Program-made: the position numbers and the translations under genes
Part shown: piece by piece, positions 23,912 through 26,891 of the stretch
How positions within the stretch are numbered: position 1 is the first letter of the stretch
How the letters are laid out: each line of letters opens with the position of its first letter
The notes under the pieces: generated by a model
The model's input: only the letters and a program-made list of their open reading frames with translations
Told to the model about the DNA's origin: nothing
The model's database searches: none
Assembly (NCBI GenBank): GCA_944326545.1
Contig: CALVEH010000002.1
Location: forward strand, 124,001 to 188,000
DNA: 64,000 nt
Direction: 5' to 3'
From: Candidatus Gastranaerophilales bacterium
Lineage (GTDB): Bacteria > Cyanobacteriota > Vampirovibrionia > Gastranaerophilales > Gastranaerophilaceae

Positions 23912-24553
23912 ATGTCTTTACCATTTGGCTTAAACAACAATATGTTTAATATTGGATTCAATACCAACTTTGGTTTTGGAATGACCGACATTGGTTTTAT
24001 GCCGTCAATAACCTCGACAAGCATACCAAATATCGGTTTAATGGGATTCCAAACAGATCCTATAGATAATTTTTGCACAAACATTATGAGCGATTACGCA
24101 CAAATGGAACGCGAATTTTTCCAAGTTTTGATGGCAATCTTAATGGATCCAAATATAAACCATATCCCAACACCGGACATATTAAGCAATATAAGGCCGT
24201 ATGACTACAATAGCTACGGTAAAAACGGAGACAAAATTTCAAAATTAACTCCAGAAATGCAAGAAAAAACAATGCAGTTGCTCGACTATGCAAAATCACA
24301 AGGAATGACTGTGACAATAAATAGCGGATATAGAACCCAAGAAGAACAAAGGGAACTTCAAAGGACAAGGGGTAAATACGCTGCCAAAAACTCGCTTCAT
24401 TGTCAGGGAAAAGCTATAGATATAAGTATAGCGGGTGGAAAAGATTCTGATTATAAAAAACTTGGTGACTACGCAAAATCAATAGGTATGCGTTGGGGTG
24501 GCGATTTTTCAAAAGTAAAAGAAAGATGGCACTTTGATTTGGGTTGGAGCTAG
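23912..24553 (+). CDS. Peptidase M15-family cell-wall hydrolase
   Basis: A 213-residue protein. Residues 1-110 are an uncharacterised Phe/Asn/Gly/Met-rich region without a signal peptide. Residues about 112-213 are an M15 (VanY/L-Ala-D-Glu endopeptidase type) domain with NSGYRTQEEQ, the zinc ligands in LHCQGKAIDI (H near 162, D near 168) and the terminal MRWGGDF...WHFDLGW (H near 206). It should cleave peptides of peptidoglycan. The lack of a recognisable signal means export is unclear; the unusual N-terminal extension might act instead. The ribosome site is AGGGA. It diverges from the outer-membrane protein gene. Confidence 0.85.
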   Translation: MSLPFGLNNNMFNIGFNTNFGFGMTDIGFMPSITSTSIPNIGLMGFQTDPIDNFCTNIMSDYAQMEREFFQVLMAILMDPNINHIPTPDILSNIRPYDYNSYGKNGDKISKLTPEMQEKTMQLLDYAKSQGMTVTINSGYRTQEEQRELQRTRGKYAAKNSLHCQGKAIDISIAGGKDSDYKKLGDYAKSIGMRWGGDFSKVKERWHFDLGWS

Positions 24554-24593
24554 TAACAATAAAATAATATTAATTGTTTAGTCATATATTTTT

Positions 24594-24852
24594 GTTCATT
24601 TTTAGCTCGCCTTTGGCTCCGCAGACAAGTTCACTAGGCTCGCTTCGCTGCGCCTGTTCATTTTTAGCTTCGCCTTTGGCTCCGCAGACAAGTTCACTAG
24701 GCTCGCTTCGCTGCGCCTGTTCATTTTTAGCTCGCCTTTGGCTCCGCAGACAAGTTCACTAGGCTCGCTTCGCTGCGCCTGTTCATTTTTAGCTTCGCCT
24801 TTGGCTCCGCAGACAAGTTCACTAGGCTCGCTTCGCTGCGCCTGTTCATTTT
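24594..24852. repeat. Four tandem copies of a GC-rich 62/63-bp repeat
   Basis: Units run 24594-24655 (62 bp), 24656-24718 (63), 24719-24780 (62) and 24781-24843 (63), plus a 9-bp start of a fifth. Odd and even units differ by one inserted T (agctcgcc versus agcttcgcc), so the array is a duplicated 125-bp dimer. The units are far richer in G and C than the flanking DNA, and each contains AGGC/GCCT-type short hairpin arms. There are no spacers, so it is not a CRISPR. Confidence 0.95.
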
Positions 24853-25195
24853 GTCAAAAAAAAAGAGGCTTTTTTTAAATAGCCCCGTGTTTTAAATACC
24901 TATTTCCCGTTCCTTATAGTTTTAAGTTTATTATAATCAATTAGTCTAGTTTATCTCTTTAGTGGTTTGTTTATTTCTTACATTTATATAAAGTATATAA
25001 AAAAGAAATAATTGCCTCTCAAGAGTTATGCAAAAAATTCAAATATTAAGAATTATTACAAAAAACATAAAAGAGTATATACTTTCACACGCTTAAGAAT
25101 AAAAAACAGCAATTTAGTATATACTAAATGCATAAAAAAGCAATTGTAAATAATTGTTAAGAATACTTCAATAATTAAATCTAATCCCATATAGA
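24853..25195. other. Gene-free AT-rich stretch between two convergent genes
   Basis: No credible gene is seen here. It starts with A9-GAGGC-T7 (24856-24876), a weak hairpin that could end the M15 gene transcript. It then holds three copies of TTAAGAAT (25046, 25093 and 25157) and two copies of AGTATATACT (25074 and 25116). A 22-codon ATG frame at 25028 has no ribosome site and is not called. Confidence 0.6.
25074..25129. promoter_or_regulatory. Palindrome pair with AGTATATACT core
   Basis: ATTTAGTATATACTAAAT (25112-25129) is a perfect 18-bp palindrome. Its core AGTATATACT also occurs at 25074-25083, 42 bp away, which is four helical turns. The form suits a dimeric DNA-binding protein bound on one DNA face. 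No nearby gene start explains it. Confidence 0.4.
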
Positions 25196-25226
25196 AAAAA
25201 GAGCCCTGCTCTGCAGGACTCTTTTC
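25196..25226 (-). terminator. Terminator of the rpsL-rpsG operon
   Basis: AAAAGAG(C)CCTGC pairs with GCAGG(A)CTCTTTT with one mismatch and is flanked by A- and T-runs. It follows the rpsG stop by about 19 nt. Confidence 0.85.
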
Positions 25227-25244
25227 TTTCTAATAAATTTAGAA

Positions 25245-25715
25245 TTAGTATCTGTAATGAGCAAAAGCTTTGTTTGCTTCAGCCATTTTGTGAGTATCTT
25301 CACGTTTTTTGCAAGCTGCACCTTGTCCGTTTGAAGCATCAATCAATTCAGCAGTCAATTTTTCTTTCATTGATTTGCCGTGTCTTTTCTTAGCAGAATC
25401 AATCATCCAAATAGCTGCTAAACCTTTACCTCTGTCAGCTTTAACTTCTACAGGTACTTGGTATGTAGAACCACCGATTCTTCTAGCTTTAACTTCAAGC
25501 AACGGAGTTGTGTTAGCAAAAGCTTTGTTGAAGATTTCGATAGGATCTTCTTTTGTTCTTTCTTTAATAGCTTCCATTGTTTCGTAGAAAATTCTTTCTG
25601 CAATAGATTTTTTACCGCGTCTCATCAATCTGTTGATGAATTTAGCGATATCGACACTGTTGTAAATTGCATCAGGTGCCGGAATACGTTTTGGTGGTTT
25701 ATTTCTTCTTGACAT
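25245..25715 (-). CDS. rpsG: 30S ribosomal protein S7 (uS7)
   Basis: A 156-residue protein of standard length. It starts MSRRNKPPKR with PDAIYNSVDIAKFINRLMR, IFNKAFANTTPLLEVKARRIGG and STYQVPVEV, and ends in EANKAFAHYRY. S7 nucleates assembly of the 30S head by binding the 3' major domain of 16S rRNA. It lies 39 nt after rpsL in one operon. A terminator follows, and fusA and tuf, which usually come next in the str operon, are not here. Confidence 0.98.
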   Translation of the reverse strand: MSRRNKPPKRIPAPDAIYNSVDIAKFINRLMRRGKKSIAERIFYETMEAIKERTKEDPIEIFNKAFANTTPLLEVKARRIGGSTYQVPVEVKADRGKGLAAIWMIDSAKKRHGKSMKEKLTAELIDASNGQGAACKKREDTHKMAEANKAFAHYRY

Positions 25716-25754: not shown

Positions 25755-26138
25755 CTATTTTTTAGCTGCTTTAGCTTTTTTAGCACCATATTTAGATCTG
25801 CTTTGTGCTCTGTTAGCAACACCAGCTGTATCCAATGTGCCTCTTACGATGTGATATCTAACACCAGGAAGGTCTTTAACCCTACCGCCTCTGATAAGAA
25901 CAACACTGTGTTCTTGGAGGTTGTGTCCGATACCAGGAATATAAGATGTAACTTCAAAACCGTTAGTTAATCTAACCCTTGCAACTTTTCTCAAAGCTGA
26001 GTTAGGTTTTTTTGGTGTAGTTGTATAGACTCTTGTGCAAACGCCACGTCTTTGTGGACAGTTTGTAAGAGCTGGTGATTTAGTTTTATCAACTAATTTT
26101 TTACGTTCTTTTCTTACCAATTGTGCAATTGTTGGCAT
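25755..26138 (-). CDS. rpsL: 30S ribosomal protein S12 (uS12)
   Basis: A 127-residue protein. It starts [14 protein letters not shown], with [20 protein letters not shown] (the decoding-centre loop with the lysine linked to streptomycin response), [25 protein letters not shown] and [14 protein letters not shown]. It functions in mRNA decoding in the 30S subunit. The sequence at the KPNSALRK loop is wild-type in form. The start has GGAG upstream. A structured 5' leader precedes the gene. Confidence 0.98.
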
Positions 26139-26176
26139 GATTTCTCCTTGTATATAAATTTTTATTATTATTAATT

Positions 26177-26272
26177 CAGGTTAGGCAAACACACCTTAGC
26201 CCTTTTACGGAGTTTGCAACGACGCTCCGTGCGTCATACCCATACCGAAAATCAGCGTTCAGCACAAACCTG
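26177..26272 (-). ncRNA. Structured leader of the rpsL operon (candidate cis-regulatory RNA)
   Basis: In the 306-bp space upstream of rpsL, read on the minus strand, CAGGTT (26272-26267) can pair with AACCTG (26182-26177) to close a domain of about 95 nt. Inside, GACGC-ACGGA-GCGTC (26235-26221) is a hairpin. An alternative pairing ACGGAG (26230-26225) with CTCCGT (26212-26207) uses the same bases, so the two are mutually exclusive. That layout is typical of ribosomal-protein leaders and other switches. The family is not one I can name. The call is inferred from base pairing only. Confidence 0.45.
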
Positions 26273-26311
26273 GTACTCCCGATAGAGATACAACTATATC
26301 AAACCCCAAAC

Positions 26312-26344
26312 AAAAGCCGATGTCAACGCTAACATCAGCTTTTT
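26312..26344 (-). promoter_or_regulatory. Hairpin and -35-like box upstream of the rpsL leader
   Basis: AAAAGC(C)GATGT and AACATC(A)GCTTTT form an imperfect stem with a T-run on both strands. Its loop side contains TTGACA on the minus strand (26326-26321), a consensus -35 pointing at rpsL. A weak TTTGAT -10 lies 17 bp on. The site may combine a terminator and a promoter. Confidence 0.4.
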
Positions 26345-26391
26345 ATTAAGGATTTTAAACGATTTTACTTATAAAACAAATTTCATATATA

Positions 26392-26424
26392 AAAACAAGA
26401 GGCTAAAACATAGCCTCTTGTTTT
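26392..26424 (-). terminator. Terminator of speD
   Basis: AAAACAAGAGGCTA and TAGCCTCTTGTTTT form a perfect 14-bp stem with a 5-nt loop and end in Ts. It follows the speD stop by about 20 nt and separates speD from the rpsL operon. Confidence 0.9.
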
Positions 26425-26444
26425 GTTGTTAAAAATTTATATTA

Positions 26445-26891
26445 TTAAAACTGATTCGCAATTTCAAAAGGAGTTTCTGAAACATGAGAAGCAGCATCAA
26501 TTTTACCTCTTTTTAATTCTGAAAAAGATGCTTTAGTTGAATGAAAAGCTTTTTTCAAAAACTCATAAGCAACTTTAGGGTCACACTTGTCACCACATGT
26601 GAACAAATCAACAGCAGCATATCCAAGCTCTGGCCAAGTATGAATAGCCAAGTGACTTTCAGAAATAATTACTACACCGCTAACTCCGTGCGGACTAAAC
26701 ATATGAAAACATTTTTGAACAATTGTTGCACCGCATTCTAACGCTGCATCAATCATCAAACTCTCAACTTTTTGAGAATTGTTTAAAATATTAGGATCAC
26801 ACTCAAAAAATTCAGCCAAAACGTGCTGTCCAAGATACTTCGCTTTTGTATCAACGTGATAAACGTTAGAAGCTGTCATAGATTTAGTCAA
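26445..26891 (-). CDS. speD: S-adenosylmethionine decarboxylase proenzyme
   Basis: The chain is about 148 residues, of the small bacterial class 1 type. The self-cleavage site is the serine in IISESHLAIHTWPELG, which becomes the pyruvoyl group; HTWPELGYAAVDLFTCGDKC carries the conserved His and Cys. It makes decarboxylated SAM for spermidine synthesis. The frame is open to 26915, but AAGGAG lies inside that extension. The likely start is the TTG at 26891, 9 nt after GGAG, or the ATG at 26879. An out-of-frame ATG-AAT-TGA mini-frame sits between the ribosome site and the TTG. The MTA phosphorylase at 31.3 kb would recycle the by-product of the next step. Confidence 0.95.
   Translation of the reverse strand: MTKSMTASNVYHVDTKAKYLGQHVLAEFFECDPNILNNSQKVESLMIDAALECGATIVQKCFHMFSPHGVSGVVIISESHLAIHTWPELGYAAVDLFTCGDKCDPKVAYEFLKKAFHSTKASFSELKRGKIDAASHVSETPFEIANQF

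Follow-up and report, generated by a model that had tools for sequence, protein, structure and literature searches.

The str operon of Escherichia coli is repressed by ribosomal protein S7, which acts at the spacer between rpsL and rpsG (PMC10931766). Repression of this operon is the sole extra role described for S7 in that review, and no autogenous role is described there for S12 (PMC10931766). For the cyanobacterial str operon, regulation by S7 has been suggested, with a 16S rRNA-like site upstream of rpsG (Meng et al., 1989, as cited in PMC10931766), and S7-mediated regulation is said to be unstudied outside the phyla of E. coli and the cyanobacteria (PMC10931766). Structured RNAs have also been described upstream of rpsL. 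In Listeria, Xanthomonas, Pseudomonas, Rickettsia and streptococci, the rpsL-leaders are predicted to attenuate transcription by way of terminators and were proposed to respond to S7; whether such diverse leaders all answer to S7 was posed as an open question (PMC2965389). The rpsL motif of Candidatus Pelagibacter ubique, restricted to Pelagibacter and marine metagenomes, lies directly upstream of rpsL, has a bulged P1 stem and a three-stem junction, and is thought to regulate ribosomal protein expression through an unknown ligand (PMC2704228). Leaders of rpsL are already known in several forms, with no motif in common (PMC2965389, PMC2704228). Comparative genomics has yielded 20 ribosomal leader candidates, the same class of object as the one described here; a search of that text finds no uS7, uS12, rpsG, Cyanobacteria or Melainabacteria (PMC7247131). 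The literature searched contained no riboswitch or ribosomal leader for the lineage studied here.

The window (64,000 nt from a 2.19-Mb Gastranaerophilaceae genome, whose S12 has its nearest named relatives in Candidatus Gastranaerophilales) carries the same operon as the E. coli site, and the ligand is likely the same. However, the element lies upstream of rpsL and folds as a capped stem followed by a pseudoknot, and fusA-tufA, present behind rpsG in E. coli, does not follow. The E. coli spacer does not contain the conserved loop of the new element, YGUGCUGR, and neither does the 39-nt spacer of the window; the E. coli-type location is occupied in a single genus, g26. In contrast to the E. 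coli and cyanobacterial sites, no likeness to the S7 region of 16S rRNA could be detected in the new element. The cyanobacterial operon belongs to a related phylum, yet YGUGCUGR is absent from the sampled cyanobacterial spacers, bar a possible chance match (L069). The attenuator-type rpsL-leaders share the operon but differ from the window leader, where no terminator-like site was found. Unlike the Pelagibacter motif, the window leader is a single capped stem with a pseudoknot, from another phylum and with no match in Rfam.

The rpsL-rpsG locus and its promoter

The features of the locus are as follows.

25245-25715, minus strand: rpsG, ribosomal protein S7, 156 aa (open reading frame), 39 nt 3' of rpsL
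25755-26138, minus strand: rpsL, ribosomal protein S12, 127 aa (open reading frame)
26144-26149, minus strand: Shine-Dalgarno sequence of rpsL, AAGGAG
26298-26326, minus strand: putative promoter, TTGACA (26326-26321), 17-nt spacer, TTTGAT (26303-26298)

Since rpsL and rpsG are both on the minus strand, the leader is taken as a minus-strand RNA. The next open reading frame 3' of rpsG is convergent, so that fusA and tuf do not follow, and across 23912-25715 the str operon is cut down to rpsL-rpsG. In the family, rpsL was detected in 181 of 191 genomes (its positions were given by two protein searches), and wherever both genes were found rpsG follows it on the same strand. Regions upstream of rpsL were gathered for 80 genomes, besides further loci.

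The TTGACA box is conserved in relatives at a constant distance 5' of the leader. The promoter pair is missing from the list of a consensus scan because its -10 element has no A at position 2. Judged from this pair, the transcript would start near 26290. AAGGAG or a near form precedes the rpsL start codon in relatives, and no terminator-like site occurs in 26100-26480, including the stretch between leader and rpsL.

The -35 box is itself enclosed by an inverted repeat (26311-26344, minus strand), AAAAGCTGATGTTAGCGTTGACATCGGCTTTT, next to which comes TTTTGTTTG. Its arms co-vary in most members of the genus (CCCGATGT/ACATCGGG, CCTGATGT/ACATCAGG, CCCGTTGT/ACAACGGG), and it looks as if it were an upstream terminator or an operator overlapping the rpsL promoter.

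Structure and covariation of the leader

The leader extends on the minus strand from about 26290 down to 26183 and contains the following elements, each given with the proportion of paired cells in the alignment.

26237-26290, minus strand: P1 of the 5' stem, 26290-26286 with 26241-26237 (97.8%)
26245-26282, minus strand: P1b, 26282-26279 with 26248-26245 (95.8%)
26253-26272, minus strand: P2 hairpin, the core of "hairpin A", CAGGUU 26272-26267, loop UGUGCUG 26266-26260, 3' arm 26259-26253 (91.7%)
26221-26235, minus strand: pseudoknot stem 1, GACG 26235-26232 with CGUC 26224-26221 (100%)
26207-26230, minus strand: pseudoknot stem 2, ACGGAG 26230-26225 in the loop of stem 1 with CUCCGU 26212-26207 (93.5%)
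26183-26202, minus strand: short 3' hairpin, GGGC 26202-26199 with GCCU 26186-26183, loop UAAGGUGUGUUU (98.4%)

Covariation was counted on alignment A2, 18 sequences from two genera with N padding in two rows to keep register. Over P1, P1b, P2 and the two pseudoknot stems, 95.3% of 450 cells hold standard pairs, 14 of 25 pairs are double-changed and 60 cells are compensatory; none of 500 shuffles matches the leader in paired cells, double changes or covariation score. When the structure is slid along the alignment, 31-49% of cells pair, a generous control given that the structure was derived from the same sequences, and the double changes carry more weight. Within the 5' stem, one pair of P1 is double-changed (UA, CG, GC, UG) and three are invariant, three of the four P1b pairs are double-changed, and P2 has three such pairs out of six, with G26256 bulged. 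The P2 loop UGUGCUG is invariant in alignments A1 and A2. Folding without the 3' part predicts P1-P1b-P2 as a single long stem, and P1b was also predicted independently by folding.

The pseudoknot has a four-pair stem 1, a 1-nt loop, a six-pair stem 2 and an 8-nt crossing loop, GUUGCAAA (26220-26213). Stem 1 (consensus GRCG/CGYC) has one pair in GC and AU forms and three invariant pairs. Compensatory changes affect all six pairs of stem 2 (ACGGAG/CUCCGU, ACAGGG/CCCUGU, ACGGAA/UUCCGU, UAGAG/CUCUA), and genus g33, outside the A2 alignment, has GCGGAAAA/UUUUCCGC at the equivalent place, which supports stem 2 independently. A hairpin loop thus pairs with a 3' segment and both stems are conserved, as in H-type pseudoknots. 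Support for the short 3' hairpin is moderate and at genus level, with one of its four pairs double-changed.

These results revise a sequence-only reading of the same DNA, which had placed a structured, perhaps self-regulatory leader of no named family at 26272-26177, before rpsL, with a 96-nt closing helix (CAGGTT/AACCTG) and two mutually exclusive hairpins. Its strings lie on the minus strand as described (CAGGTT 26272-26267, GACGCACGGAGCGTC 26235-26221, CTCCGT 26212-26207, AACCTG 26182-26177), with rpsL directly 3' of them. The closing helix does not hold: it has no double-changed pair, 80% of its cells pair against 80% in shuffles, and 12 of 18 sequences break its fourth pair. What the CAGGUU strand forms instead is a local, covarying hairpin, CAGGUU-UGUGCUG-AACGCUG, and the element begins about 18 nt further 5', at the P1 strand 26290-26286. 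Both proposed hairpins, GACG/CGUC and ACGGAG/CUCCGU, are real; their mutual exclusion, as a switch, is unsupported, and the comparative data fit a single pseudoknotted structure. The two compete for one base only (G26225, which the small hairpin needs for a fifth pair that is not conserved) and so coexist in the pseudoknot. Covariation among close relatives, whose lack was to count against the stems, is strong in the leader stems and nil in the closing helix. A local 5' hairpin competing with P1, GUAUCUC/GGGAGUAC, was considered as well and is not claimed as a switch, since it shows no compensatory changes.

Folding energy is no guide here. The 96-nt piece is unremarkable (z -1.8 on the plus strand, equally weak as the -1.9 on the minus strand) and a longer stretch gives z -0.4, so relatives had to decide and the evidence is comparative. 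Such values speak for functionless chance pairing, an explanation whose probability is next to nil, refuted as it is by the covariation and opposed by conservation across genera.

The complete leader is narrowly distributed. Searched for as DNA in 99 genomes, it turns up in 18 of the 23 genomes of the genus, the window's own included, with three weak matches beyond. A covariance model run on 182 family genomes, the kind of search the earlier reading had called for, finds strong matches nowhere but at the rpsL loci of g1 and g19, a single one per genome, and weak matches at those of g33. On a tree of S7 proteins, the three pseudoknot-bearing genera cluster (support 100/99). Rfam 15 reports only a tRNA in the window. 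At E values up to 10, all matches listed for 26000-26500 lie outside the leader (at or beyond 26301) and far under gathering scores, and 12 relatives searched at E up to 0.5 give no match, in line with the absence of a named family. The element is a real, conserved and covarying RNA structure in the mRNA of a ribosomal protein operon, that is, a ribosomal protein leader, and it is unlisted.

A core hairpin shared across the family

Other genera have differing leaders with a common hairpin, of the P2 type, whose loop YGUGCUGR lies 44-66 nt 3' of TTGAC. Of 37 genera sampled in the family, 26 have the motif near the transcript start upstream of rpsL when GUGUUG is allowed as well (g1, g2, g5, g6, g7, g9, g10, g12-g19, g22, g23, g25, g27, g30, g32, g33, g35, g38, g69, g70). 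In the other 11 the exact motif is absent from the leader position, and several lack it at both the leader and the spacer site; g24 and g29 have UUGCCGG at its place. GUGCUG is invariant in 35 aligned sequences, which were, though, picked for the motif. The core hairpin may stand alone, as a short hairpin is all that some genera retain, or be followed by differing 3' hairpins.

Support for the stem across the family comes from folding single sequences against shuffles, because the MAFFT alignment of hairpin A aligns the loop and not the stems. The loop is enclosed by a mean of 10.4 pairs in 75 unique cores and 5.9 after flank shuffling (mean z -2.6); many of these cores are related, and some, including several of g26, are singly no better than their own shuffles. 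A search for promoter plus motif in 79 genomes returned the rpsL site and scattered chance-like matches, and a reversed-pattern control also matches. Among other organisms, 76 S12-S7 regions contain the motif at chance level (2 matches, 1.3 expected).

Genus g26 has no leader upstream of rpsL. In all six of its genomes examined, the spacer between rpsL and rpsG carries GUUGCAAUAAAUU-CGUGCUG-AAAAAUUACAAC or a variant of it, whose loop lies 43-53 nt 5' of the rpsG start (the 5' arm has diverged in L312). On the S7 tree g26 is nested in a clade with support 98/93. The remaining sampled genera of this clade, g3, g21, g36, g37 and g68, lack the motif at both sites. A relocation of the hairpin inside the operon is therefore probable; a tree of one short protein does not fix the sequence of events.

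Ligand and mode of control

The position of the g26 hairpin coincides with that of the E. coli S7 repressor site, and it is on this ground that an S7-binding autoregulatory element is proposed. We consider it fairly probable that the leader is a cis-acting element of the rpsL-rpsG (S12-S7) mRNA through which excess S7 lowers translation of both genes. The structure stands on covariation; S7 as ligand, translation as the level of control and the part given to the pseudoknot are inferred. Self-regulation, as the sequence-only reading had it, is likely right and has gained from the strong covariation and from the single copy per genome, always at rpsL; the structure it drew was right only in part. 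S7 in excess over 16S rRNA would bind the capped hairpin with its UGUGCUG loop, with help from the pseudoknot in the window's clade. Sitting 5' of the ribosome-binding site, the bound protein would lower translation of rpsL and of the rpsG that follows. Control is probably translational, as no terminator was found. Simple hindrance is plausible in g18, whose short leaders bring the hairpin near the Shine-Dalgarno sequence, and in g26, where the hairpin is just 5' of the rpsG site. In the window, 33 nt separate the end of the 3' hairpin from the Shine-Dalgarno sequence and blockage is less obvious, for which reason the pseudoknot may add contacts or keep the 30S subunit off.

Against S7 stand the genera without the motif and the lack of detectable mimicry of the rRNA site. 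A first impression of likeness to 16S helices 42 and 43 fell in a test of hairpin A, hairpin B, the pseudoknot, the 3' hairpin and the spacer hairpin, whose best local matches to 16S rRNA do not exceed those of shuffled queries (p 0.26-0.99), and the choice of S7 accordingly rests on position. It comes close to an even chance, without quite reaching it, that this is a novel S7-recognition RNA, specific to the lineage and with no sequence relationship to the 16S site, with a core hairpin (YGUGCUGR) that moved between leader and rpsL-rpsG spacer in one family and a pseudoknot module gained in the window's clade. Such a family would offer a compact recognition hairpin, a natural relocation experiment in one operon and testable structural predictions.

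Could the same leader bind S12, the product of the first gene and, beside S7, the second ligand offered by the sequence-only reading? The element lies directly 5' of rpsL in 26 of 37 genera, but in g26 the same hairpin is 3' of rpsL and just 5' of rpsG, which favours S7, and it is S7, not S12, to which the review gives an autogenous role (PMC10931766); S12 is an unlikely ligand. A general 5' structure serving mRNA stability or ribosome standby, with no specific ligand, would explain why the leader sits at the extreme 5' end of the RNA and why a short hairpin suffices in some genera. It would explain neither the strict conservation of the loop sequence nor the internal site in g26, so unlike that of a 5'-end protector, and it is rather improbable. 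A small-molecule riboswitch or a transcription attenuator is very improbable: the pseudoknot is compact, the loop is conserved and attenuators are predicted 5' of rpsL in other phyla (PMC2965389), but there is no terminator-like site, the element was found only at a ribosomal protein operon and no Rfam riboswitch matches.

Alternatively, the leader could have two states, in which parts of the hairpin (UUGUGC, UGAUUUYC) open and pair with the rpsL start (GCACAA, GRGAAAUCA), masking the ribosome-binding site, with a protein or other signal choosing between them. This is the minimum-energy fold predicted for the first 181 nt of the mRNA. With their own rpsL start the loops pair far better than scrambled loops do, and other starts are slightly poorer partners for them (3 of 500 shuffles do as well, in a test that ignores relatedness). 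Among 19 genus-level genes no invariant run is longer than the opening 18 nt of rpsL, though the genes were found by that string. However, these codons are under protein constraint, the complementarity is absent in several genera, and a protein on the hairpin would expose the start site, which is opposite to what feedback requires. A switch of this kind is thus quite unlikely as the mode of control; in the window's genus the loop could pair with rpsL codons 5-6, and the modelled energies are suggestive, but this pairing is not general across genera.

Under S7 control, further hairpins may provide a second contact for the protein. One is an extra 3' leader hairpin with a conserved bulge, CCGGAAUGCGUAAGGGUUUCAGG, in nine genera (g2, g6, g9, g10, g13, g17, g34, g35, g38), paired in 100% of cells over 19 sequences and double-changed in three of six pairs; in this set L201 (g35) is identical to L200. 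The other is a hairpin of the rpsL-rpsG spacer in g5, g11, g15, g16 and g23, ending in GGUAAGAC or similar.

Several minor observations touch on these regions. Larger leaders of the form GGCAAAAnAGGACGUAAGG ... AGUCCnGUCAUAACCGGAAUGCGUAAGGGUUUCAGGAUUAUGAUUUUGCC, with the covarying CCGGAAUGCGUAAGGGUUUCAGG, occur 5' of rpsL in L152-L154, L160, L172, L178-L180 and L200-L201. The spacer hairpin takes the form GUCCCGAG...CUCGGUAAGAC in L026, L319, L324, L328 and L329 (five genera); its GUAAG recalls both AAGUAAGG of the E. coli spacer and the leader hairpin GUAAGGG seen in other genera. The 16S rRNA pieces of L227 (G016) and L219 (G031) differ greatly, and one of these bins may carry a foreign rRNA contig. 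Bacteroidales-type loci (L059, L072, L089, L095, L102, L117) have in common a long rpsL-rpsG spacer, GGUUGAGUAAA...GUUGAAG, possibly another S7 site. Three loci of family f6, a different order-level family (L139, L144, L148), have a conserved leader element of their own 5' of rpsL, GUCGGUnAnnnCCGGCAUG, with GGCAUAAGGAGG at the ribosome-binding site.
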